Assembly: GCF_902381825.1 (NCBI RefSeq)
Contig: NZ_LR698973.1
Location: 3,150,823-3,168,329, forward strand
Length of the DNA stretch: 17,507 nucleotides
Direction of reading: 5' to 3'
Source of the DNA: Pseudocoprococcus catus
GTDB lineage: Bacteria; Bacillota; Clostridia; Lachnospirales; Lachnospiraceae
Positions 1 to 13,505 of the stretch are shown one piece after another. The notes under the pieces were generated by a model. It was not told the origin of the DNA. It ran no database searches and was given only the letters and a program-made list of their open reading frames with translations. The first letter of the stretch is position 1. Each line of letters begins with the position of its first letter. A program made the translations under genes and the position numbers.

Positions 1-21
1 TAAAGGGTACACTTTAAAATG

Positions 22-60
22 GAGCTCGGAAATCCAGCATTTATGCGGGTTTCCGGGCTC
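22..60. terminator. Hairpin at left element end, possible bidirectional terminator or att site
   Basis: A long inverted repeat pairs GAGC at 22-25 with GCTC at 57-60 and continues through CGGAAA and TTTCCG. There are two G-T pairs, one bulged A at 36, and an inner GCAT/ATGC stem. It overlaps the last codons of the minus-strand metalloprotease gene, so it probably ends that operon. It resembles the hairpin at 13461-13500. Confidence 0.6.
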
Positions 61-1399
61 TTGTTGTGTGGTTTGAGTGCAGATTGAGTATAAAAATTAA
101 TTTTTCTTTTGAAATATTTCTTCTGTTTTTTCGAAAAAGAAATTGATCAAACTCTTCAGTGTTGGTAATCCATTCTAAATCAGAACGACTGAGAAATTTT
201 TGTTTTAATATATTATAAAATTCTTGTTTAGAATAAGAACACTGAGAACTATTTAGATTCCCTATGATTCCATTTATGCGACCGAATAGGCTAGCACGTT
301 CTTTTTTGTCTGGATAATAATAATCAATAATATTATGTAAAATAGTTTTAGAATCCCTTCTATCATGTGTGTTTCCAGTGAATTTGTAATCAGCACGACA
401 ATACCAGACGGTAATTTTTATATGCTTGCCAGAAGCAGTTGTGTGATAAATACAATTTTGGCTGTACCAGTTATCTGTATCAATGTTGTTTTGATAGGGA
501 GAATGGATATATGTATTAGGAGCAAAAATATATTTATAGTTATGTGATGAAACAACTTCTATTTTTAATATGGTTCCTGGTAATAGATATTGTCTAAGAT
601 TTTTAAATAAATGAGCATAATTAATATTTGAGGAAGATACAAGTTTATTGCAAATAGTGGCACAATGAGATTTAGTTGAAATATGCTTTGCAATTTTTTG
701 TATGGTAGTTTCATCAAGTATATTTTTGAAATGATATATTTTGACGCTCATTATGTCAGTATCAATATTTTCAGTATCTAAACAGTTAATTGCAAGCCAA
801 TTATTATCAAGCGTGTAATTGGGATTTTCCAGTAAAAAAGGTCTAGGACTATTAGAACCATATTTCATATGTGAATAATTATTAATTTTGTTATTGATTA
901 TAAATAGATAATTTGCAGGAAGTAGTGGTATTATATTATATATTGCGGCAGGCAATGAAACAATCGCTCTTTGACATATATCGTCTATTAATGTTGTAAT
1001 TTTGTTATTATGTTGTGCTATTAAGGATTGTAACCAGGATGAAGGCATAAGTAGCTCTGCTGCAAAAGCATTTGCTTCTTGTTCCATTTGATAATACTCT
1101 GTTATATCAATTTCATTTAAAAATTCTGTTGTACATGAAATCATTCCGGTATGTGAAGGTATTTGCAAATGAGCTAGCTCATGTGCATATGTGAATCGTT
1201 TACGTAAAGGAGACATATTGCTTTTTATAATAATGAGGGGGGCGTCATTATTGAGGCAGATGGCATCACCATCAACAGGAATATAGGCTTCTTTAACGTC
1301 GGCATAATGCTTCAAGAGTTCATCTATTTTTACTGGTAGTGATAGTTTATGATATTGAAAAAATTTTTTTGCTCTTTTTCGTGCTAATTCTATACTCAT
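41..1399 (-). CDS. ImmA/IrrE-family metallopeptidase with long unknown C-terminal region
   Basis: A 452-aa protein. The N-terminal third is an ImmA/IrrE (COG2856) zinc peptidase: residues 73-77 read HELAH, the HExxH zinc site, and EQEANAFAAELLMP at 106-119 supplies the usual third zinc ligand, probably E108. Family members cleave XRE-type repressors or antitoxin-like partners, as ImmA does with ImmR in ICEBs1. The remaining roughly 300 residues match no domain I recognise and are rich in Asn, Ile and Tyr. The start codon overlaps the stop of the upstream small gene by one base (TAATG), so translation is coupled and this is the last gene of the four-gene operon. The final codons lie in the hairpin at 22-60. 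Cutting of the operon's XRE protein or of the antitoxin is inference from context. Confidence 0.85.
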   Translation of the reverse strand: MSIELARKRAKKFFQYHKLSLPVKIDELLKHYADVKEAYIPVDGDAICLNNDAPLIIIKSNMSPLRKRFTYAHELAHLQIPSHTGMISCTTEFLNEIDITEYYQMEQEANAFAAELLMPSSWLQSLIAQHNNKITTLIDDICQRAIVSLPAAIYNIIPLLPANYLFIINNKINNYSHMKYGSNSPRPFLLENPNYTLDNNWLAINCLDTENIDTDIMSVKIYHFKNILDETTIQKIAKHISTKSHCATICNKLVSSSNINYAHLFKNLRQYLLPGTILKIEVVSSHNYKYIFAPNTYIHSPYQNNIDTDNWYSQNCIYHTTASGKHIKITVWYCRADYKFTGNTHDRRDSKTILHNIIDYYYPDKKERASLFGRINGIIGNLNSSQCSYSKQEFYNILKQKFLSRSDLEWITNTEEFDQFLFRKNRRNISKEKLIFILNLHSNHTTRARKPA

Positions 1400-1713
1400 T
1401 ATTCAATCATTCCTTTTTCTTTAAGCCAATTATAAATCTTTTTTGCTTCTTCCGGTGATGAAGAACGAGCGACTAATTTAGAAGTATATTCTTCTTTAAG
1501 TAATTCATTAATATTAATGTCTTTTTCGTGAGCTGAAATGATATATTTAAGATAGAAATCATTTTCAACCCAAAGAAAGTATTCTTCTTCTGTCATACCA
1601 AGATATTCAAATACACTACAATCTGTATCTGAGTCATGCCATTTTTCTATATAATCATCAATTTCATCTAATATTGCGTCTGCATTAATAACATCATTGA
1701 TAAAATTAGACAT
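1399..1713 (-). CDS. Small acidic protein, probable antitoxin/immunity partner of the E3-type RNase
   Basis: A 104-aa protein, strongly acidic, with no membrane segment. A motif around residues 36-51 reads EYLGMTEEEYFLWVEN, which I recall only from hypothetical proteins of Firmicutes. It does not resemble the colicin E3 immunity protein Im3. A GGAGG at 1724-1728 serves ATG 1713 (spacing 10) or an in-frame GTG at 1716 (spacing 7); I chose the ATG. It overlaps the end of the RNase gene by 8 bases and is joined to the metalloprotease by a one-base overlap, so the three are translated together. Position right after a basic RNase, the acidity and the size all suggest that it binds and neutralises the toxin. 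That role is inference; other possibilities are a protease adaptor or a regulator. Confidence 0.75.
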   Translation of the reverse strand: MSNFINDVINADAILDEIDDYIEKWHDSDTDCSVFEYLGMTEEEYFLWVENDFYLKYIISAHEKDININELLKEEYTSKLVARSSSPEEAKKIYNWLKEKGMIE

Positions 1714-1942
1714 CACTTAATTTCCTCCCTTTTACTGCTGGTTTAATTGTTCGACCTGTGATTTTATCAGCGGATCCAAGATGTACTCCGTTTTTAGCAC
1801 TATAGATTTCTACGTCACCATGCTGTGAATCCCACTGATATAGTCTTTTTCCATCTCGGGATTTCCAAGTTTTTTTACCTTCAATTCTTTTCGAAAGAAT
1901 AAAGCAATCTTCGAGAAAAGAAGGTGGACTATATGGTATCAA
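1706..1942 (-). CDS. Stand-alone colicin E3-type ribosomal RNase toxin
   Basis: A 78-aa protein consisting almost only of the cytotoxic RNase domain of colicin E3 (Pfam Cytotoxic). The segment at 35-46, YQWDSQHGDVEI, matches YEWDSQHGELEG of colicin E3. Without any gap, D38, H41, E45 and R73 fall on the four E3 residues known to matter for catalysis, D510, H513, E517 and R545. GVHLGSAD and the following TG also align. Colicin E3 cuts 16S rRNA in the decoding site (A1493/G1494) and stops translation. Here there is no receptor-binding, translocation or secretion region, so it should act inside its own cell. Translation starts at TTG 1942, nine bases after GGAGG; no ATG fits. The upstream XRE gene ends 33 bases away. 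The weak TTG start may keep toxin output low (inference). Confidence 0.88.
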   Translation of the reverse strand: MIPYSPPSFLEDCFILSKRIEGKKTWKSRDGKRLYQWDSQHGDVEIYSAKNGVHLGSADKITGRTIKPAVKGRKLSDV

Positions 1943-1975
1943 ATGTTTATTCCTCCTTATTTTTAAACGGATATA

Positions 1976-2584
1976 TTAAGGAATTAATCTTATTTCTGAT
2001 CTCTGCAATTCCAATTCCACTTTTTCTTTTGTTTCTGCTATTTCATCTATAGCTGCTTGCGTAGCTTCATTTGGATTATCTCCAGCGGATTTCAAAGCAC
2101 TCTGGTAGAGGTAATTCATCTTTTCCCATTTCAACAAGTCATTAAACACCTTATAACTTCTGATATTTAACAAAGCGTCCTGCAAAGACAGCGTATGTGC
2201 TTTCCCTCTGGTGGTATATCCGATTTCGAGATAAGAAGAAAGAACTGGATTCAGATGGATGGATACAGTATCATCTTTTAATATCTTATTTTCCCCTCTC
2301 TCCCCACTGATTTGGAGGATGCCGGAATTACAAAGCACCATAAGTACGCCCATCAGGTCACCGACTGTTTCCAGACGAAGTCCGGCGGTATCACTGCCAT
2401 TCAAAGCATTATAACTGACACCGAGTGCAGCTGCAATTTTCTCTAACTGAGGAGGTTGTGGCTGCATTTTATTGGTTTCGTATTTTCGGATAGAAACCGG
2501 ATGGATGCCGGTCAACTCAGCCAGTTTATCTTGCGTGATGCCGATTTGCTTTCTGCAGTATTTGATTTTTTCTCCTATGGTCAT
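1976..2584 (-). CDS. XRE-family transcriptional regulator of the element
   Basis: A protein of about 202 aa with a Cro/C1-type helix-turn-helix at residues 4-58 (motifs GITQDKLAELTG and VSIRKYETNK). An alpha/beta region of unknown fold follows, with a Glu/Lys-rich helical tail. GGAGG at 2594-2598 is nine bases from ATG 2584 but only three from ATG 2590, so I prefer 2584 (MTIGEKI). It is transcribed divergently from the excisionase and integrase, and three copies of one 14-bp palindrome lie in the shared control region. It is the obvious candidate to bind them, repressing integration/excision genes and its own operon. It heads the RNase-antitoxin-ImmA/IrrE operon, and an ImmA-type protease downstream of an XRE repressor recalls the ICEBs1 switch. 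Confidence 0.85.
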   Translation of the reverse strand: MTIGEKIKYCRKQIGITQDKLAELTGIHPVSIRKYETNKMQPQPPQLEKIAAALGVSYNALNGSDTAGLRLETVGDLMGVLMVLCNSGILQISGERGENKILKDDTVSIHLNPVLSSYLEIGYTTRGKAHTLSLQDALLNIRSYKVFNDLLKWEKMNYLYQSALKSAGDNPNEATQAAIDEIAETKEKVELELQRSEIRLIP

Positions 2585-2601
2585 TTTCATCGTCCTCCAT
2601 G

Positions 2602-2615
2602 TATCGAGATGGCTA
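2602..2615. promoter_or_regulatory. Operator O3 in the XRE leader
   Basis: TATCGAGATGGCTA matches the consensus TAGCGA-NN-TCGCTA at 10 of the 12 fixed positions. It lies between the -10 box of the XRE promoter and the XRE start codon, where a bound protein would block that operon. Confidence 0.55.
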
Positions 2616-2616
2616 C

Positions 2617-2645
2617 ATTATACCATGTTTGAAAAAAATTTTCTA
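2617..2645 (-). promoter_or_regulatory. Promoter of the XRE/toxin operon
   Basis: Read on the minus strand, TATAAT (2622-2617) is a perfect -10 box. TAGAAA (2645-2640) is a fair -35 box (4 of 6) at 17-bp spacing. Confidence 0.6.
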
Positions 2646-2662
2646 CTGGCATTTCAAAATAC

Positions 2663-2691
2663 TTGACAATAGCGAAGTCGCTACATATAAT
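2663..2691 (+). promoter_or_regulatory. Consensus sigma-A promoter for excisionase/integrase
   Basis: TTGACA at 2663-2668 and TATAAT at 2686-2691 are both perfect and are separated by exactly 17 bp. Such a strong promoter would need a repressor, and operator O1 fills the spacer. Confidence 0.85.
2670..2683. promoter_or_regulatory. Operator O1 inside the integrase promoter spacer
   Basis: TAGCGAAGTCGCTA has perfect 6-bp arms with a 2-bp spacer. It sits between the -35 and -10 boxes of the excisionase/integrase promoter, a classic repressor position. Confidence 0.7.
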
Positions 2692-2705
2692 GGAAGCATA
2701 AAATG

Positions 2706-2719
2706 TAGCGATAACGCTA
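2706..2719. promoter_or_regulatory. Operator O2 downstream of the integrase promoter
   Basis: TAGCGATAACGCTA has perfect 5-bp arms and matches O1 in all but two positions. It lies 14 bp after the -10 box, near the expected transcription start. O1 and O2 are 36 bp apart centre to centre. Confidence 0.65.
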
Positions 2720-2743
2720 TAAAAAGAAAAGGAGGATGCATAT

Positions 2744-2932
2744 ATGGAAGAAAACAACAAGATTTATATTACTGCAAATGAACTCGCAGAAATGTTGGGT
2801 GTTTCTGTAGGTCATGCGTACAAGCTGATTCGTAAGCTGAATCAGGAACTGGAAAAAGAGGGATTTCTGGTGATTGCGGGCAAAGTTTCCAGAAGATATT
2901 TTGAAAAACGCTGGTATGGCTTCAGTGTGTAG
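2744..2932 (+). CDS. Excisionase-like small winged-HTH protein
   Basis: A 62-aa protein with a MerR/Xis-type DNA-binding helix pair: residues 8-29 read ITANELAEMLGVSVGHAYKLIR, followed by a basic wing (AGKVSRRYFEKRWYG). Small proteins of this type lie just before tyrosine integrases in many Firmicutes IMEs and ICEs and act as directionality factors or integrase-promoter regulators. The gene has a strong AAGGAGG (2729-2735), eight bases from its ATG, and is first in the operon, 11 bases before the integrase start. The excisionase role is inferred from position and fold. Confidence 0.8.
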   Translation: MEENNKIYITANELAEMLGVSVGHAYKLIRKLNQELEKEGFLVIAGKVSRRYFEKRWYGFSV

Positions 2933-2943
2933 AAGGTGGTCGG

Positions 2944-4011
2944 ATGAAAGCGGAAAAAGACAAGAAAACAGGGAAATGGTTGATTCAGTATCGTTATACG
3001 GATTGGCAGGGGAAACGCCGGAAATCCACTAAAAGAGGTTTTGCGACCAAAAGAGAGGCCGAGGAATGGCTTCGGAATTTCCTTATTACACAAAAAGCAG
3101 ACTTTGATATGAAGTTTGAGAATTTTTGGAAGATGTATTGTGCAGATATGGAAACTCGCCTGCGGGAGCATACCATAAGAACGAAAAAGTATATCGTGGA
3201 GCTGAAAATTCTCCTGTATTTCGGGAATAAGCGGGTAAATGATATTACTGCAGCTGACATCCGTCAATGGCAGAATGAATTGATTAAAATGGGGTATTCA
3301 CCCACTTATCTGAAAACAATTAATAATCAGTTGAGTGCAATCTTTAATTATGCAGTTCGATATTATGATTTGAAAAGTAATCCCTGTGCAAAAGCCGGAA
3401 GTATGGGTAAGAGCAAGGCAGAAGAAATGGATTTCTGGACAGGAGAGGAATTTAGGAAGTTTATCGACAGTGTCATGAACAAAAGACTTTCTTATATGGC
3501 ATTTATGACTTTGTATTGGACAGGAATGCGTTTGGGAGAGCTTCTGGCCCTGAATCCGAAAGATGTAGATTTGGAAAAGAGAACAATTACTATCACAAAA
3601 TCATATCAACGTCTTGGCAAGAAAGATGTGATCACTCCACCAAAGACACCGAAGAGCAAGAGAGTGATTACCATTCCAGAGTTTCTGGCTGCAGATATCA
3701 AAGATTATATAGACAGCTCATATGAGTTGCAGGAGAACGACAGGTTGTTTCCCATTACAAAATATTATCTGGAGCATGAAATGCAGCGAGGAATTAAAGA
3801 AAGTGGAGTAAAGCGGATAAGAGTACACGATTTGAGACATTACCATGTATCACTGCTTATCAGCATGGGATTTTCGGCGGTATCAATCGGAAACAGGGTG
3901 GGGCATGAAAGCGTGGATATTACTTATCGCTATGCTCATATGTTCCCGACGGAACAGACACAAATGGCAAAATTGCTGGATGAAGAATTTAAGGAGGGCG
4001 CAGAGGAATGA
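2944..4011 (+). CDS. int: Tyrosine recombinase/integrase
   Basis: A 355-aa protein, full length for Tn916-like integrases. Order of domains: an arm-type DNA-binding domain at about 10-48 (GKWLIQYRYTDWQGKRR and a following strand-helix), a SAM-like core-binding domain at about 55-150, and a catalytic domain at about 165-345. Catalytic residues visible: R196 (TGMRLGELLAL), a lysine in the 234-239 region, H295 and R298 (VHDLRH), H321 (GHES) and nucleophile Y330 (TYRYAH). It integrates and excises the element, probably with the upstream small protein. Its stop overlaps the next start as ATGA, so the mobilization genes are coupled to it. No frameshift or truncation is seen. Confidence 0.95.
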   Translation: MKAEKDKKTGKWLIQYRYTDWQGKRRKSTKRGFATKREAEEWLRNFLITQKADFDMKFENFWKMYCADMETRLREHTIRTKKYIVELKILLYFGNKRVNDITAADIRQWQNELIKMGYSPTYLKTINNQLSAIFNYAVRYYDLKSNPCAKAGSMGKSKAEEMDFWTGEEFRKFIDSVMNKRLSYMAFMTLYWTGMRLGELLALNPKDVDLEKRTITITKSYQRLGKKDVITPPKTPKSKRVITIPEFLAADIKDYIDSSYELQENDRLFPITKYYLEHEMQRGIKESGVKRIRVHDLRHYHVSLLISMGFSAVSIGNRVGHESVDITYRYAHMFPTEQTQMAKLLDEEFKEGAEE

Positions 4012-4446: not shown

Positions 4447-4485
4447 CTTCCGGTGACAACGAATTTTTCAAAAACGGAGGACATT

Positions 4486-5466
4486 ATGGCAGGAACGAGA
4501 ACAGAATTACAGATGATTAAAATGTCGGAGATACAGTCGCAGGAGGTGGCGTGGCTGTGGTTTCTGTTTATCCCTTATGGAAAGCTGACGATTATACAAG
4601 GCGATCCGGGGGACGGTAAGACAACGTTTGTGCTGAACATAGCGGCGAAGCTGTCAAAAGGCGAGGGTCTGGACAGCAAAATGAAACTGACGGAGCCGCT
4701 GAATGTGATTTACCAGAGTGCGGAGGACGGGCTTGCAGATACGGTTAAGCCCCGTTTGGAAACGGCAGGAGCAAATTGTGAAAATATTTCCGTCATTGAC
4801 GAGAGCATAAAATCACTTTCCATGATAGATGAACGTCTGGAAGAAGCAGTCATAAGGAAAAAGGCGAAGCTACTGATTTTAGACCCGATATAGGCGTATC
4901 TCGGCGGCGGTATGGATATGAACCCGGCAAATGAAGCAAGGGATATGACAAAGAAGTTGGCGACTTTGGCGGAGAAATATCAATGTGCCATTGTACTTGT
5001 AGGGCACATGAACAAAGCGGCTGGAAATAAGGCAGCATATCGGGGCATGGGTTCCATTGATTTCTTTGCGGTGGCAAGGAGCGTCCTGCTGGTCGGCAGA
5101 GTGGAGGGCGAAGCGAATATAAGGGCGGTAGTCCAGATAAAAAACAATCTGGCGGCGTTTGGGCACCCGAAAGCCTTTGAGTTGTCGGAGGACGGTTTTC
5201 ACTGGCTCGGAGATTATGAGATTACCGCTGATGAAGTGTTGGGCGGTATCGCTCCGAAAGCGAATAAGCTGGAACAGGCGAAGCGTCTGCTCCGGGAAGT
5301 GGCAGAAACAAACAATGCCATGCAGAGCAATGAGATTTTCAATCTTGCAGAGGAACAGGGTATATCCAGACGGACGCTTGAAAATGCGAAAAAGGAATTG
5401 AGTATCAGAGCAAAGCGGATAAACAATTCGTGGTATTGGGAACTGGATAAAATCAAGCCGGAATAA
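4486..5466 (+). pseudogene. RepA-like AAA/RecA-fold ATPase interrupted by an in-frame amber codon
   Basis: If the TAG at 4891-4893 is read as a sense codon, this is a 326-aa RecA-fold ATPase of the AAA_25/RepA helicase type. ATG 4486 has GGAGG five bases upstream. Walker A is GDPGDGKT at 39-46 and Walker B is LLILDP at 129-134. The stop falls at residue 136, followed in frame by AYLGGGMDMN and then the sensor region IVLVGHMNK. In relatives I recall, this site reads DPIQAYLG, so one C-to-T change of CAG explains the stop. The C-terminal roughly 60 residues look like a winged helix. Genes nearby use TAG as a normal stop, so routine read-through is unlikely. The second part could restart at ATG 4912 but would lack Walker A. 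The intact protein would help replicate or stabilise the excised element. Confidence 0.85.
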
Positions 5467-5961: not shown

Positions 5962-7332
5962 TTGAAGCGAACTATCAGCTTTATGACAGGAAAAGGCTCT
6001 GACAACCATAATAGCAGAAAATTCCATGCAAAGAATACTGACCCGGAGCGAAGCTGTCTGAACGTGGAATACTGCAATGAAAATGTTAAGGACGTATATC
6101 ACGAATTATTTGATGAAGCACTCGCTTGGTACAATGAGAAGCAGACCAGAAGTGACCGCCGGATTGACGATTATTATGAGAAAATCCGTTCCGGCAAGCA
6201 GGAAAAGCCATTCCATGAAATTATTTTGCAAATCGGGGATAAGGACAACATGGGGGCAAAGACGGAGAACGGACGACTTGCGGCAAAGGTGCTGGATAAA
6301 TATATGCGGGATTTCCAGCGGCGAAATCCTACGTTAAGAGTATTTAGTGCCTATCTTCATATGGACGAAGCAACGCCCCACTTGCATATAGATTTTGTAC
6401 CGTATACGACAGGAAGCAGGCGGGGGATTAATACAAGAGTTTCTTTGAAACAGGCGTTATCTGCTCTCGGATTTAAAGGCGGTACAAGGCGGGAAACGGA
6501 ATTAAATCAGTGGGTAGCTTATGAGAAAGAACAGCTTGCCGCTGTCATGCTGGAACATGGGATTGAGTGGGAGAAGAAAGGCACACATGAAAAGCATTTA
6601 TCTGTTTTGGACTTTGAGAAAAAGGAGCGGGCAAAGGAAGTCGCAGAATTGGAGCAATCTATTTCTGACGGAAAAGAGCGATTATCAGATATTCAGATTC
6701 AGCATAGAAAAGCAGTGCAGGAAACAGAGCAGATACGGCAGAAGGGCGAAGCAATCCGGCAGGAAGTATCGGAACTTTCGGAAACAAGTGATTTGCTGAA
6801 GGAGCAGGCGACAACGCTGGCAGAGGACAAGAAAAAGCTGCTGTCTTATAATGTGAAATTGGAGAAGCAACAGAAGAAATTGCAACGAGATATTGAGAAA
6901 ATGGTTCAGTCTAAGGCGGTCATGGAACGGAACATACACGCTTATGACGAGGATGAGAAGTGGCAGCTGCCTGAACCGGCGGCGTTGATGTCTGCAAAGG
7001 CTTATAAGGATAAAAAAGCTTTTCCGCTTGTGGAGAAATTGAAAGAGACGATAAAAGCATTGACGATTAAATGCGTCCAGCTTGCGGAACAGGGGAAGAA
7101 ACTGAAAGATAAAGTTACCCGGCAGGAACAGCAGATCAGCCGCCTGACAGATAAGGTCATGGAGCAGAGCGACATTATTGACCGATTGCAGGAGAAAACG
7201 GCAGATTTGGGGCGTTTGGAACGCTATTTCGGCAGAGAACAGGTGCAGTCGATAGTTGAGCGGTCTAAGGCCCTGGAATGGGCAGAAAAGGAAAATAAAC
7301 GTCCGAAACGTGTATTTGATATGAGCAGATAG
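5962..7332 (+). CDS. MobV/Pre-type relaxase
   Basis: A 456-aa relaxase that should nick oriT and lead single-stranded DNA into a helper conjugation system. Motif I is N15-H16-N17-S18-R19, in the place of the HNER motif of pMV158 MobM, whose histidine is the nucleophile. A downstream RSCLN..Y stretch follows. Motif III is HMDEATPHLHIDF at 133-145, the metal-binding HxxDxxxPHxH pattern. From about residue 210 to 430 the protein is Glu/Lys/Gln-rich and probably a long coiled coil, usual for this family and used for dimerization. The start is TTG 5962, with AGGA six bases upstream and no in-frame ATG near the conserved N-terminus (KRTISFM). No disruption is seen. Confidence 0.9.
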   Translation: MKRTISFMTGKGSDNHNSRKFHAKNTDPERSCLNVEYCNENVKDVYHELFDEALAWYNEKQTRSDRRIDDYYEKIRSGKQEKPFHEIILQIGDKDNMGAKTENGRLAAKVLDKYMRDFQRRNPTLRVFSAYLHMDEATPHLHIDFVPYTTGSRRGINTRVSLKQALSALGFKGGTRRETELNQWVAYEKEQLAAVMLEHGIEWEKKGTHEKHLSVLDFEKKERAKEVAELEQSISDGKERLSDIQIQHRKAVQETEQIRQKGEAIRQEVSELSETSDLLKEQATTLAEDKKKLLSYNVKLEKQQKKLQRDIEKMVQSKAVMERNIHAYDEDEKWQLPEPAALMSAKAYKDKKAFPLVEKLKETIKALTIKCVQLAEQGKKLKDKVTRQEQQISRLTDKVMEQSDIIDRLQEKTADLGRLERYFGREQVQSIVERSKALEWAEKENKRPKRVFDMSR

Positions 7333-7346
7333 GGGGGATTGATAGA

Positions 7347-7661
7347 ATGACAGATATGGAGAAAAAAGTTATGGTTCGGCTGTGTGCGAAAATCCTTTCA
7401 GAAACAGATTTGTATGATACAGATATGGAAGTACGCAATCTAATTGACTGGATATGTGTGTCGGAGCAGATAAAATCAAACAATAACGAGATACGAAGTA
7501 TAACCGGGGAATATAAGCGGATAGAGCCGGATTGCCGGGAGGGAGTGCGGACGCAGTTGGAGCACATGAAGTCACTCTGTAAAGAACGTGAGAGCTTGTA
7601 TGAGAAGCAGAATGATTTGAAAGGGCAGAAGCAGAAAATCGAGAGAGCATTGGAACGGTAG
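7347..7661 (+). CDS. Small coiled-coil protein downstream of the relaxase
   Basis: A 104-aa protein, highly charged, with an N-terminal globular-looking part (about 1-45) and a C-terminal coiled coil (about 65-104, with KERESLYEKQNDLKGQKQKI). Its ATG is 14 bases after the relaxase stop, with a G-run as the ribosome binding site, and a terminator-like hairpin follows, so it is the last gene of the mobilization operon. No function is recognised; the position suggests an accessory mobilization factor. Confidence 0.7.
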   Translation: MTDMEKKVMVRLCAKILSETDLYDTDMEVRNLIDWICVSEQIKSNNNEIRSITGEYKRIEPDCREGVRTQLEHMKSLCKERESLYEKQNDLKGQKQKIERALER

Positions 7662-7667
7662 GGATTT

Positions 7668-7699
7668 GGGGCATGGCGGCGGCTGTGCCCCTTATTTCT
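7668..7699 (+). terminator. Rho-independent terminator after the mobilization operon
   Basis: GGGGCA (7668-7673) pairs with TGCCCC (7686-7691) around a GC-rich 12-base loop, followed by TTATTTCTT. It separates the mobilization operon from the yjdF transcription unit. Confidence 0.7.
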
Positions 7700-7749
7700 T
7701 GTGGCAAAATTGCTGATAATATGCTAAAATCAAAGAGCAGAGATAAAAA

Positions 7750-7858
7750 CACAACGTAAGGGATAACATCTCTTATAGAGCCGGTAGGTAGTCCGGCCGC
7801 ACAGTTTTGGTGTAAGTAGCCCTCCCTCCTTGGGTCGTCCGTTCTTTGTTCAGTACAA
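7750..7858 (+). ncRNA. yjdF riboswitch (azaaromatic-sensing RNA motif)
   Basis: The 200-base leader before YjdF carries the features I know from the yjdF RNA motif: GTAAGGGATAAC near the 5' side, a GCCGG...CCGGC hairpin (7780-7797) enclosing TAGGTAGT, then GGTGTAAGTAGCCC, and GGGTCGTCCGTT near the 3' side. AACG (7753-7756) can pair with CGTT (7840-7843) to close the structure. This RNA class sits upstream of yjdF genes and binds aromatic heterocycles, usually turning translation on. The AAGGAGG of the gene begins about 6 bases after the motif. The match to motif and gene together is convincing; outer limits are approximate. Confidence 0.85.
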
Positions 7859-7877
7859 TTTATAAGGAGGAATTGTC

Positions 7878-8294
7878 ATGGACAAAGTATCAGGCAGATT
7901 GACAGTATTTTTTGAGGAACCATTCTGGATAGGTGTGTTTGAACGCATATCGGAGGGAAAATTATCTGTATGCAAGGTTACGTTCGGGGCGGAGCCGAAA
8001 GATTATGAGGTATACGATTTTGTTTTGAGAAATTACTATCGACTGAAATATAGTCCGGCTGTGGCAACTGATGTAAAAGAAGCTGGTCGCAATCCGAAAC
8101 GGGTACAGAGAGAAGTGCGGAAACAGATGCAGAGTGCTGGAATAGGCACGAAGTCGCAACAGGCTTTGAAATTACAGCAGGAGCAGTTGAAAACTGAACG
8201 CAAGACTGCGAGCCGGGAACAGCGGGAAGCAGAGAAACAGAGACAGTTTGAACTGAAACAGCAGAAAAGGAAAGAGAAGCATAGGGGCAGGTAA
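7878..8294 (+). CDS. yjdF: YjdF family protein (DUF2992)
   Basis: A 138-aa protein. The N-terminal half is a small beta-rich domain (GRLTVFFEEPFWIGVFER, then VTFGAEPKDYEVYDFV). The C-terminal half is very basic and conserved in the family: NPKRVQREVRKQM, GTKSQQALKLQQEQ and a tail ending in KQQKRKEKHRGR. It resembles B. subtilis YjdF throughout. Biochemical function is unknown; from its riboswitch it is thought to help cells deal with toxic azaaromatic compounds. The charged tail suggests RNA or ribosome binding (inference). The start is ATG 7878, with AAGGAGG about eight bases upstream. It is the last backbone gene before the cargo. Confidence 0.92.
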   Translation: MDKVSGRLTVFFEEPFWIGVFERISEGKLSVCKVTFGAEPKDYEVYDFVLRNYYRLKYSPAVATDVKEAGRNPKRVQREVRKQMQSAGIGTKSQQALKLQQEQLKTERKTASREQREAEKQRQFELKQQKRKEKHRGR

Positions 8295-8315
8295 CGCCTG
8301 TTCCGGCGTTCCTTT
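8293..8315 (+). terminator. Terminator after yjdF
   Basis: AACGCC (8293-8298) pairs with GGCGTT (8305-8310), followed by CCTTT. The stem is short but GC-rich and overlaps the yjdF stop codon. Confidence 0.55.
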
Positions 8316-8483
8316 ATCAAATTGCGTAGACTTTGTTGTTACGCTTTAGAGGGTTTGAAACGCTTGTTTTATAAGGGCTTGGAAGTGCCGAAATGATATG
8401 GGCGATACTTTATACCTTTACCGTTCAAATTGGATTTTGGTTGCGTAACAGGAGCGATTGCACATTTCCTTGGTGGATATAAT

Positions 8484-8541: not shown

Positions 8542-9258
8542 ATGTCTATATCAGTAAAGCTGAATAAAAATGGTATTAAAAAATTACAGAAAGAATTAGA
8601 ACAAGAAATGAAAAAGAGGACGATAGTGAGGGAAGGCGTAGGATTGCGTAAAGATAGTGAGAAATTTTTGAAAATAGTATTGGAAAAAAGAGAAGAAAAT
8701 GGGAGTGATATTGTCACTTGTACATTAGATATGTTTAGTGAAATTCCAAACATTGAATTTAATGTTGGAAATATAATGGATGATTTGAAACTACATAATT
8801 GTATTAGCAGTAATAGTACAGTATTTATTTCTGGCGAGGTGCAGGTTATATTGACTATAGATGGAATTGAGTATTTTAAGGAGAAGGAGATTCAAATGAA
8901 AGAAAATCAAAGAATTACGAATAATACCAATAATTTTTATGGAGAAGTTACCGGTGTACAAATTCAACAAGGTACGGTTAATTCTTCACAATCTCAATCA
9001 GTTAATCAAGGGTTTGATTATGCTGAAGTGGCTGAAATCATTCAGAAGATAAAAAAATATGATTCTTTTTTGGATGATGAGTATGGAGAAAATGCTTTGG
9101 AAATGCGAAATAAAATCGACGAAATAGAGGATTTGGTGCAAAAAGAAGAAAATCCCAGTAGAATAAAGGCTTTGCTAAATGATATTAAAAACTTGTCCAT
9201 AGGTGTGGCAGGTAGTTTAATTGCTTCTGGTATTGTTACTCTTTTGAGTAGAGTGTAG
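8542..9258 (+). CDS. AbiTii-partner protein with C-terminal hydrophobic glycine-rich helix
   Basis: A 238-aa protein. Residues 1-120 are a mixed alpha/beta region I do not recognise. Residues 127-150 contain NNFYGEVTGVQIQQGTVNSS, a tag I associate with the part following the AbiTii domain in many AbiTii proteins. Residues 158-215 are helical and acidic. Residues 217-236 (LSIGVAGSLIASGIVTLL) form a glycine-zipper-like hydrophobic segment near the C-terminus that could insert in a membrane. The downstream AbiTii protein ends in a shortened form of the same tag. The genes are nine bases apart, so they form one operon. I infer that this is the partner or effector half of an abortive-infection system. 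The ribosome binding site is weak (GGTG). It is visibly AT-rich compared with the backbone. Confidence 0.75.
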   Translation: MSISVKLNKNGIKKLQKELEQEMKKRTIVREGVGLRKDSEKFLKIVLEKREENGSDIVTCTLDMFSEIPNIEFNVGNIMDDLKLHNCISSNSTVFISGEVQVILTIDGIEYFKEKEIQMKENQRITNNTNNFYGEVTGVQIQQGTVNSSQSQSVNQGFDYAEVAEIIQKIKKYDSFLDDEYGENALEMRNKIDEIEDLVQKEENPSRIKALLNDIKNLSIGVAGSLIASGIVTLLSRV

Positions 9259-9267
9259 GAGGCATAT

Positions 9268-9879
9268 ATGGGTGGTATAGTCATTGAACTTCAAAGAGAA
9301 GCATTAGATGAAAAAATCTCTATTGAATCATTGATACGAAAAGCATATCTTGTTGCTAAAAAATTAAAATTAAAAGAATTTGAAGAATGGCTTAATCAAG
9401 AGCAAAATGGCTATAAAAAGGAGATTCCAGAATATCGAAATATTACAGGAGAAATAAAAGCATGGAATCCATATCATGGTTGGATTCCAATGATATTACC
9501 TGCAAAAGTGGCAGATATAGCTTCAAGAATGCCCATTCCAAACTCAATATCTTCTCTTTTAGATGTATACAATTCTAGCGAAGATAGAGTCGCTTTTTCG
9601 GTAAATGGGGCAATGACAGAATTTTTTAATAACAGTATAGATTTTATGCCAACAAAATATGCGTTTTTTGTTTCAAAAAGTGAGTTATATAGAATTATGA
9701 GTACTGTTAGAAATAAAATATTAGATTGGGCATTACTCCTTGAAGAAAATGGAATAGTTGGGAATGAGATGACTTTTACTGATGTAGAAAAACGGATAGC
9801 GATAGATACACCGATAATCAATAATTACATTAACAATTTTTATTCTAAGGTGTCAGATGTTGATATGAAACAAGGATAG
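9268..9879 (+). CDS. AbiTii-domain protein, short form
   Basis: A 203-aa protein. Residues about 10-180 match the AbiTii (abortive infection, toxin-immunity type ii) domain as I know it: SLIRKAYLVAKKLKLKEFEEW, then NGYKKEIPEYR, KAWNPYHGWIP, and near the end WALLLEENGIVGNEMTF. The domain was named from comparative genomics of defence systems; its molecular action is not established. After it comes NNYINNFYSKVSDVDMKQG and the stop. Relatives usually continue past this tag into a further helical region, and here that region appears in the upstream gene instead. GGAGG overlaps the upstream stop and lies five bases before ATG 9268. Defence against phage is inferred. Confidence 0.75.
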   Translation: MGGIVIELQREALDEKISIESLIRKAYLVAKKLKLKEFEEWLNQEQNGYKKEIPEYRNITGEIKAWNPYHGWIPMILPAKVADIASRMPIPNSISSLLDVYNSSEDRVAFSVNGAMTEFFNNSIDFMPTKYAFFVSKSELYRIMSTVRNKILDWALLLEENGIVGNEMTFTDVEKRIAIDTPIINNYINNFYSKVSDVDMKQG

Positions 9880-11884: not shown

Positions 11885-12241
11885 AGGGCAAGAAGATGGG
11901 GATTAGATCATGAAAAATCACATGGAGAGAGTTTTCTCGCATTAGCACAGAATAATATGAATCCCAATGGCTTGTATCTTTTTGACGAGCCGGAAGCTGC
12001 ATTATCACCGCAGAGACAGCTTACATTGTTGATGCAAATATACAGATGTGCAAAAGAGGGAGCACAGTTTATTATAGTTACGCATTCGCCGATTTTGTTA
12101 GGAATACCAGATGCAGATATTTATTGTTTTGATAATGGATGCATACATCTGTGCGAATATGAGGATACAGAGAGTTATCAGGTGACAGAAATGTTTATAA
12201 ATAATAGGCAGATGCTGTTGGATAGATTACTAACAGATTAG
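11885..12241 (+). pseudogene. 3' remnant of an AAA/ABC-type ATPase gene
   Basis: The open frame starts after a TAA at 11882. From 11906 it reads DHEKSHGESFLALAQNN, then NGLYLFDEPEAALSPQRQ, a Walker B/D-loop, then IIVTHSPILL with the H-loop histidine, and ends normally at 12241. SHGES is the signature-like motif of RecF/OLD-type predicted ATPases (COG3910-like). Walker A and the whole N-terminal half are missing, and no intact start with a ribosome binding site exists. The remnant of roughly 110 codons is therefore inactive. Such ATPases occur alone and in defence systems; its presence indicates gene loss in the cargo region. Confidence 0.8.
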
Positions 12242-12372
12242 ATAATAAAGAAATCGACAAATTCCAATTGCGAAAATTGATGTGACAATTACATATGGTG
12301 AGAAATTGAAAAGAAAAATTAGAAAATTATTTTGAAAAAGAGTGTCCGTAATGTAGAAAGGGGGAAACCAAG

Positions 12373-13242
12373 ATGAAAAACATGAAAATAGATGCCAATG
12401 GAACAGAAATCAGAGTGATAGGCGATGTTGTTAATGAAGACGCTTACATTTCGCTCACTGATATTGCAAAATATAAAAATCCAGACAATGCTTTTATCGT
12501 GGTAGCAAACTGGATGCGTAATCATTCTACGATTTCATTTTTGGGCTTGTGGGAACAAATTCACAATCCCAATTTTAAACCTATCGAATTCGATAGGTTT
12601 AAAGCAGAATCTGGTGATAATGCTTTTACGCTGACACCGCAGCAATGGATAAAAGCAACGGATGCAATCGGTATCGTATCAAAATCGGGACGGTATGGCG
12701 GCACTTATGCCCATACAGATATAGCTTTCGAGTTTGCTTCATGGATTTCACCGGAATTTAAGCTTTATATTATCAAAGATTATCAGCGGTTAAAGAAAGA
12801 TGAAGCAGATCGGTTAGCGATTGGATGGGATGTAAAGAGAGAACTTTCAAAAATAAACTATCGTATCCACACAGATGCAGTAAAAGAATTTTTGATAACG
12901 CCCACATTATCTCCGCAGGAAATGGCATATACATATGCTTCAGAAGCAGATATTTTAAATATGGCTTTGTTTGGAAAAACGGCAGTACAATGGAGAAGTG
13001 AAAAAGGAATAAAGGGGAAAACTCCTAATATCAGAGATTTTGCTTCAGCAGAAGAATTGGTTGTGCTTATCAATCTGGAAGATACAAATGCAGATTTGAT
13101 AAGACAGGAAGTGCCTAAAATTGAAAGACTGAAAATATTAAGAGAAAAAGCGTACAGGCAATTAGAGCTTTTGAGAAAGAACCAGGATACGATTGCGGCA
13201 TTAAAGAAAAATCTTATTGAAGATACAGAAACAAATGGTTGA
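12373..13242 (+). CDS. KilA-N domain protein
   Basis: A 289-aa protein with an N-terminal KilA-N DNA-binding domain at about 10-130. Visible motifs are AYISLTDIAKYKNPDNAFIVVANWMRN in the first part (helix and loop, residues 25-51), FLGLWEQIHNPNF, TPQQWI, then GRYGGTYAHTDIAFEFASWIS. The C-terminal half includes a second globular part (about 165-235) and a coiled tail. The family is spread through phages and mobile elements as DNA-binding proteins of poorly known role. AAAGGGGG precedes ATG 12373. It is the last gene before the right end of the element. The coding sequence contains a 30-bp perfect palindrome at 12574-12603. Confidence 0.9.
   Translation: MKNMKIDANGTEIRVIGDVVNEDAYISLTDIAKYKNPDNAFIVVANWMRNHSTISFLGLWEQIHNPNFKPIEFDRFKAESGDNAFTLTPQQWIKATDAIGIVSKSGRYGGTYAHTDIAFEFASWISPEFKLYIIKDYQRLKKDEADRLAIGWDVKRELSKINYRIHTDAVKEFLITPTLSPQEMAYTYASEADILNMALFGKTAVQWRSEKGIKGKTPNIRDFASAEELVVLINLEDTNADLIRQEVPKIERLKILREKAYRQLELLRKNQDTIAALKKNLIEDTETNG
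12574..12603. repeat. 30-bp perfect palindrome inside the KilA-N gene
   Basis: The half-site TTTAAACCTATCGAA is followed at once by its exact reverse complement, centred on GAATTC. It codes for FKPIEFDRFK in the KilA-N domain. It could be a binding site for the protein itself or another factor, or form a cruciform. Confidence 0.8.
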
Positions 13243-13460: not shown

Positions 13461-13505
13461 AAATGCCGAAAGCCTGTATTTATGCGGGCTTCCGGCATTT
13501 GTTTT
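13461..13505 (+). terminator. Right-end hairpin/terminator, similar to the left-end hairpin
   Basis: AAATGCCG (13461-13468) pairs with CGGCATTT (13493-13500), with further pairing of AAGCC to GGCTT, followed by GTTTTA. The loop side ATTTATGCGGG (13478-13488) and TTCCGG match the left-end hairpin exactly. Confidence 0.65.

Follow-up and report, generated by a model that had tools for sequence, protein, structure and literature searches.

Gene content of the locus

The window analysed here is a stretch of 17,507 nucleotides from Pseudocoprococcus catus (contig NZ_LR698973.1). Its left end carries a minus-strand operon with the gene order XRE repressor, toxin, antitoxin and protease. A gap of 33 nt separates the XRE gene from the toxin gene, the toxin and antitoxin genes overlap by 8 nt, and the protease ATG overlaps the stop codon of the antitoxin gene by one base. 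The earlier note on this DNA had described an RNase gene and its partner at 1399-1942. Both genes do lie there on the minus strand, but the operon is larger, and its XRE and protease genes had been missed. The features are as follows.

29..56, no strand: likely left attachment site, a 28-nt repeat 86% identical to 13468-13495
41..1399, minus: ImmA/IrrE-type metalloprotease (Peptidase_M78), 452 aa, HExxH at residues 73-77, CapP-like (PF06114, 2.6e-16; PADLOC capP, 2.2e-28)
1399..1713, minus: proposed antitoxin, 104 aa, ATG start, acidic, predicted all-helical (co-occurrence, alignment, model pLDDT 78.8)
1706..1713, minus: 8-nt overlap of toxin stop and antitoxin start, ATGTCTAA
1706..1942, minus: stand-alone colicin E3-type RNase (toxin), 78 aa, TTG start (PF09000 match)
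1724..1729, minus: GGGAGG, codons of toxin G72 and catalytic R73, likely Shine-Dalgarno of the antitoxin gene (sequence, AGR bias)
1951..1958, minus: likely ribosome-binding site of the toxin gene, AAGGAGGA
1976..2590, minus: XRE-family repressor, first operon gene in this element (HTH_3, 1.5e-14)
2617..2645, minus: promoter-like site for the operon, TAGAAA-17-TATAAT with TG before the -10 (consensus match only; 18 such sites found in the region against 14.8 expected)
2706..2719, no strand: palindrome TAGCGATAACGCTA, candidate XRE operator, beside the divergent promoter-like sites
2744..4011, plus: excisionase-like gene (2744-2932; weak HTH_17 match, position) and tyrosine integrase (2944-4011), divergent from the operon
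13468..13495, no strand: likely right attachment site, the counterpart of 29-56 with the same 86% identity

Back to back with the promoter-like site of the operon lies a perfect-consensus match for a promoter of the excisionase-like and integrase genes. The element also encodes a Mob_Pre relaxase. Integrase, relaxase and flanking repeats fit an integrative mobilizable element (IME) of about 13.5 kb with the operon at its left end. The IME location proposed earlier is thus supported by the integrase, the excisionase-like gene, the relaxase and the 28-nt repeats. A human faecal record labelled bacteriophage (MT835780) contains a 97%-identical copy of window 16-3857.

A stand-alone E3-type RNase and its acidic partner

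The 78-aa protein had been interpreted as the E3 nuclease domain and nothing more, and the searches bear this out. It matches the Cytotoxic family of Pfam (PF09000) with E=7.9e-14 and 52.2 bits, well over the curated cut-off of 22, and colicin E3 with E=6.6e-11 by sequence and 1.5e-13 by profile. Five PDB sequences were matched in the sequence or profile search, and every one is colicin E3. At the sequence level, chance cannot account for a resemblance to the E3 RNase this strong. The profile alignment with colicin E3 runs without gaps through E3 residue 545, so that D38, H41, E45 and R73 correspond to D510, H513, E517 and R545, as the earlier note had it. An alignment of 24 sequences, the window toxin and 23 of 42 toxin relatives, has D38, H41 and E45 in every sequence and R73 in 22. 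In the two exceptions, P0030 and P0031, the N-terminal half is foreign and the altered C-terminus lacks R73. Structure prediction gave an E3 RNase fold with a complete domain. Some of the toxin relatives are labelled 'colicin E3/pyocin S6 family cytotoxin' by NCBI.

No delivery domain is present in the toxin protein, as had been claimed; the 78-aa ORF has its own start and ribosome-binding site, and no delivery gene was seen in the window. The E3-type RNases known to act on the decoding centre belong to toxins that are released or delivered. In the window, the enzyme is apparently a resident toxin.

The partner gene proved to be overlapping and acidic, as described before. In the window, the toxin is basic (pI 9.7) and the 104-aa protein acidic (pI 4.3). 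Across 14 loci, the antitoxins are acidic in every case (4.3-5.3), and the toxins range from 6.5 to 10.1, two of the 14 being non-basic (6.5 and 6.8). The alignment divides the antitoxin into an N-terminal WH..LGM..EEY domain and a C-terminal part with conserved AR and WL. No Pfam or NCBIfam family matched the 104-aa protein. Pfam presumably includes both the Cloacin immunity (Im3) and the Imm45 families. In sequence searches with 38 aligned antitoxins at E<=0.01, neither of these nor any other Pfam immunity family was matched, in agreement with the earlier remark that the protein does not resemble Im3. Judged by sequence, this family is likely a new antitoxin type without a Pfam entry. One relative, P0102, is named Coprococcus catus and is identical over 38% of the query. 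Over 14 loci, toxin distances and antitoxin distances are correlated (r=0.73, reached by 0 of 5000 permutations), as is expected of any co-inherited pair.

Junction of the two genes and the catalytic arginine codon

Upstream of the antitoxin start lie the purine-rich codons for toxin residues G72 and R73. In the window, their GGGAGG is 10 nt from the antitoxin ATG. We compared this junction in 24 loci, which include near copies (L021 of the window and L023 of L008). The antitoxin ATG falls within the ATGTC-stop of the toxin in 15 loci, and four more have GTGTC-stop in the same register. The register is therefore kept in 19 of the 24; L003, L009, L015, L018 and L020 differ.

Codon choice at the catalytic arginine is biased. 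Among 18 GC-rich loci (GC >0.52), 15 use AGA or AGG at this position, with L003, L007 and L018 as exceptions. These codons make up only 29 of the 129 other arginine codons of the same toxins (Fisher 7.9e-7, a value overstated because the loci are related by descent). The bias may reflect selection that keeps the ribosome-binding site of the antitoxin inside the catalytic codon. If the site does lie there, a mutation that weakens antitoxin translation would also hit the active site of the toxin, forming a genetic lock.

The toxin and its proposed antitoxin occur together

The toxin alignment was used to scan one genome per species from 84,980 species. The scan gave 76 pattern matches, and 20 were confirmed as relatives. 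Their hosts include Desulfosporosinus, Paludibacterium, Competibacter, Contendobacter, Nitrosomonas, Chromatiaceae, Acetobacteraceae and a Sphingomonadaceae, as well as a spirochaete and a verrucomicrobium, both from metagenome-assembled genomes. An antitoxin-family gene lies directly downstream of the toxin in all 20 loci, of which L011 and L012 are close relatives. The antitoxin profile A3 was built from 13 of these loci, and it also finds the other seven (L003, L010, L012, L013, L014, L018 and L020) with E of 1e-13 or lower. Partial antitoxins are found at L020, which stops after about 50 residues, L008 (81 aa), L010 (at most 77 aa) and L013 (at most 92 aa). The antitoxin also adjoins the toxin in four of four phage records, namely MT835780 and three Gordonia phages whose match scores are identical, so that the four represent two lineages. 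Two of the Gordonia phage pairs are annotated as HicA/HicB-like.

Among 299 genomes of the bacterial family of L019, PF09000 was found at 19 places in eight genomes. Window-type toxins are followed directly by the antitoxin in eight of eight cases, three of which (L014, L015 and L019) are already among the 20 loci; this count rests on setting the other 11 places apart as a second type after their ends had been viewed. No antitoxin was found at those 11 places, four of which have an internal stop. Of these 11 toxins, the readable ones end mostly in EP, KP or DP. Two second-type toxins, L030 1462-2003 and L036 1255-1961, have a DUF7683 protein (PF24731) downstream, as seen in both opened loci, and nine further second-type places in the same bacterial family lack the 104-aa antitoxin. 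In a sample of 398 genomes around the Desulfosporosinus genome, PF09000 matched two longer frames, of 273 and 405 aa, besides the seed; neither has such an antitoxin within the 3 kb examined. L025 and L026 are examples of such longer frames, with an E3 domain at the end and no window-type antitoxin. No small window-type toxin without an antitoxin was seen in the surveyed loci.

The co-occurrence that the earlier note had asked to see is therefore found in 20 of 20 genome loci, four of four phage records and eight of eight window-type toxins, and homologs in these toxin-first surveys do not regularly lack the 104-aa neighbour. Such conserved pairing of small adjacent toxin and antitoxin genes is the pattern by which type II toxin-antitoxin systems are recognised. 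The module is not specific to this element. Scans of viral contigs with single window proteins as queries confirmed no relative; with the toxin alignment they gave one locus, L023, with the same junction as L008. Tandem arrangements also occur. L018 6155-8290 (genome G008, contig C110, Rhodopila) has three antitoxins and three PF09000 matches in tandem, and L035 and L044 each have two tandem toxin-antitoxin pairs.

Free-standing N-terminal domains of the antitoxin

Searches that started from the antitoxin gave a broader picture. In the same 299 genomes, eight of nine places adjoin the toxin, and the ninth is a weak match (5e-4) without one. A sample of 398 genomes around the Paludibacterium genome returned the seed genome only with the antitoxin profile. 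The IMG/VR viral contigs gave 51 loci for the antitoxin or for its N-terminal domain. Eight of these antitoxins match to the end of the profile, and seven have the toxin upstream. The exception, L059, encodes a full-length antitoxin and the protease with no toxin, so antitoxin without toxin does occur. L060 has a truncated antitoxin copy with the toxin upstream. No toxin was detected upstream in the remaining 42 loci, some of them near a contig end, which makes 43 of 51 with L059. The N-terminal domain alone is therefore not diagnostic of the antitoxin.

Phages also encode the N-terminal 50-65 residues (WH..LGM..EEY) as a separate domain, and the full two-part protein is the toxin-linked form. 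The free-standing domain matches four PHROG families (12828, 14299, 12685 and 10992). Phages of Mycobacterium, Streptomyces and others (L066-L106, L107 and L108) carry it without a detected toxin. These orphan proteins may be antidotes, or the domain may just be a common helical one. On plasmids, toxin-like matches were found in 895 records, with many named bacteriocins among the matches listed, and the antitoxin in only two or three records with each of three queries.

The protease downstream of the pair

The gene behind the antitoxin encodes the M78 protease. In the Pfam search, it showed just M78 and a sub-threshold DUF7025, with no HTH part. H73, E74 and H77 of the HExxH motif and E106/E108 are invariant in 12 aligned relatives. 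A C-terminal region is common to the 12 as well, that of L007 being cut short. The PADLOC capP model matches 12 of 12 relatives, and each RmrA model matches 4 to 12 of them. The C-terminal tail encoded at window 41-130 is unlike that of the close relative in L021 (452 vs 433 aa). In L016 (6444-9000), the protease is in two pieces around a long opposite-strand frame (7007-8380), and its translated motif is LELGH in place of HELGH.

Of 30 loci examined with an HMM built from the 12 relatives, 20 have the protease close to the toxin. These are the 12 source loci, included by construction, together with L012, L016, L056, L057, L058, L063, L064 and L065. An XRE gene was detected within about 2.5 kb in four of the 20, leaving 16 without one by a crude detector (four seeds, with three source loci among those tested) that missed the annotated HTH gene of L022; the count is also affected by contigs ending within 1.5 kb upstream in L002, L004, L009, L015 and L057. 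In 10 of 30 loci, the HMM found no protease, so the toxin-antitoxin pair does not require it. The contig of L061 stops immediately behind the antitoxin gene, a short IrrE-like gene in L022 falls just below the cut-off (21.1 versus 22), and in L008 the HMM found no protease of the window subfamily.

The commonest neighbour of the protease is therefore the toxin-antitoxin pair, and in most other loci an XRE gene was not seen with the module. Since the protease tends to travel with the pair rather than with a repressor, the antitoxin would be its likeliest substrate. A repressor-type gene does precede the pair in three lineages: window/L021, Gordonia phage L022 and Nitrosomonas L008/L023. It is an XRE gene in window/L021 and an HTH gene by annotation, with no Pfam match, in L022. 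In L008/L023, a Peptidase_S24 gene lies about 120 nt upstream of the pair. A tyrosine integrase is near the pair in L022 (by annotation), L056 and L061.

A proposed three-gene module and its relation to known systems

Because an ImmA/CapP-like protease accompanies the pair in the window and in 20 of 30 loci, and no repressor gene was detected in 16 of those 20, we read the module as RNase, antitoxin and protease trigger. A three-gene toxin-antitoxin module of this kind, carried as cargo of the IME, is probably what the locus holds. An intracellular pair with a new type of antitoxin, as first suggested from the window alone, gains support from the Cytotoxic HMM, the predicted E3 fold and the co-occurrence. 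Colicin E3 cuts 16S rRNA after A1493. The 78-aa RNase would cut 16S rRNA in the decoding centre inside the cell and stop translation. The acidic helical protein would act as its antitoxin and be made by coupled translation from the ribosome-binding site that overlaps the catalytic arginine codon. It very likely binds the toxin; the toxicity and the 16S target are inferred. As the operon starts with the XRE repressor gene, expression is expected while the element is integrated. The downstream protease is most likely the trigger of the module; once activated, it would cleave the antitoxin and free the RNase. That it cleaves the antitoxin rather than only a repressor is plausible, with a chance slightly short of even. 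By analogy with PprI and CapP (PMC10904395), the activating signal would be single-stranded DNA. Such a module may serve in defence or addiction.

ImmA-type proteases are known from other settings, and these offer two alternatives for the protease. CapH-CapP and PprI-DdrO have ssDNA-activated M78 proteases, and the window protease and its relatives match the capP model as described above. The substrates of PprI and CapP are transcription repressors, according to the excerpted text of PMC10904395. The conserved pair of CapH-CapP and ImmR-ImmA is an adjacent HTH repressor and M78 protease; the window has a gene of each kind, but 16 of the 20 protease loci lack a detected XRE gene. The protease could serve the element, with XRE and protease forming an ImmR/ImmA-like control of excision and a real toxin-antitoxin pair inserted between them. 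The XRE gene heads the operon and is divergent from the excisionase-like and integrase genes, with the palindrome by the divergent promoter-like sites, and in ICEBs1 the proteolytic inactivation of ImmR needs ImmA, as stated in the excerpt of PMC2701414. We consider this rather doubtful, because the protease subfamily lies close behind the antitoxin in the loci counted above, mostly without an XRE gene detected by the crude search, so that, unlike in CapH-CapP and PprI-DdrO, its neighbour is the antitoxin. In RosmerTA (RmrT/RmrA) and the XRE-COG2856 modules, which are often found on mobile elements, the toxin likewise shares an operon with an ImmA-type protease. Among the predictions of Makarova et al. 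2009 is a three-component XRE/COG2856 module whose toxin is of the RelE or PIN type (PMC2701414, in part), and in the NetFlax paper (PMC10440598, in part) the ImmA-domain protein of RosmerTA is treated as the antitoxin. On this model, the window protease would be a second antitoxin component that inhibits the toxin or aids the 104-aa protein, with no release trigger. The matches of the RmrA models to the proteases speak for it. It is nevertheless unlikely, since RmrA-type antitoxins, from what the excerpt conveys, often have an N-terminal HTH, which the window protease lacks, and a separate conserved protein adjoins the toxin even in loci that lack the protease. The toxin also differs, being an E3 RNase with a separate helical protein as its likely antitoxin.

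Two further explanations concern the toxin itself. The colicin E3 RNase domain (PF09000, Tox-ColE3) is found here without receptor and translocation domains, apparently acting in its own cell, and the antitoxin has no match to the Im3 family of the colicin E3 partner. The pair might be an orphaned toxin-immunity cassette derived from a polymorphic secreted toxin of the CDI, LXG or Rhs kind, kept for recombination or for immunity to neighbours. E3 RNase tips and stand-alone cassettes are known (PMC3482391, in part), and one sampled genome has an E3 domain that ends a 273-aa frame. In the excerpt of the same paper, Zhang et al. 2012 pair the Tox-ColE3 of polymorphic toxins with Imm-Cloacin or Imm45, and neither of these was matched by the 38 antitoxins. 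Moreover, the window toxin has its own start and ribosome-binding site with no delivery gene seen in the window, and each antitoxin query found only two or three plasmid records, against 895 with toxin-like matches, all of which makes the orphan cassette quite improbable. A decayed, inactive remnant of a bacteriocin gene would account for the short protein and its TTG start, and a stop also splits a further gene in this IME (4453-5466). Conservation of the catalytic residues in the relatives, the complete predicted domain and the overlap register kept in 19 of 24 loci make such decay extremely improbable.

In the preferred reading of RNase, antitoxin and protease trigger, the protease next to the pair suggests a built-in trigger, and the recurring gene set suggests a little-noticed self-poisoning switch. 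By record title, the resident E3 toxin is spread over bacteria of at least four phyla (two via metagenome-assembled genomes only) and Gordonia phages. A more far-reaching form is an abortive-infection module, in which the ssDNA-activated protease senses phage or damage and destroys the antitoxin of the E3 RNase, and the orphan N-domains of phages are blocking antidotes. Such a module would be widespread, with a colicin warhead acting as an internal suicide enzyme. We regard this extension as speculative and not very likely.

Toxin-antitoxin RNases that cut 16S rRNA are also known in Mycobacterium tuberculosis, namely RelE1 and RelS-RelI (PMC13284704 and PMC12620021, both in part). In these partial texts, they are RelE-like and cut at or near the anti-Shine-Dalgarno, a site distinct from the decoding centre. 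By title and start of the abstract, no paper on an E3-type toxin-antitoxin system and no earlier report of activity for this family was found among the matches listed in the CC-licensed PMC literature, a collection without bioRxiv, subscription papers and toxin-antitoxin databases.

Other cargo of the element

The element carries abundant defence-type cargo. Window 8542-9879 and 11957-13242 contain AbiTi/AbiTii matches together with an AAA_21 fragment and a KilA-N/PDC-S22 gene. This cargo and the setting suit, without proving, a role in defence or addiction. At 4453-5466, the split gene mentioned above is an AAA_25 gene, divided by its stop codon into 4453-4893 and 4912-5466.
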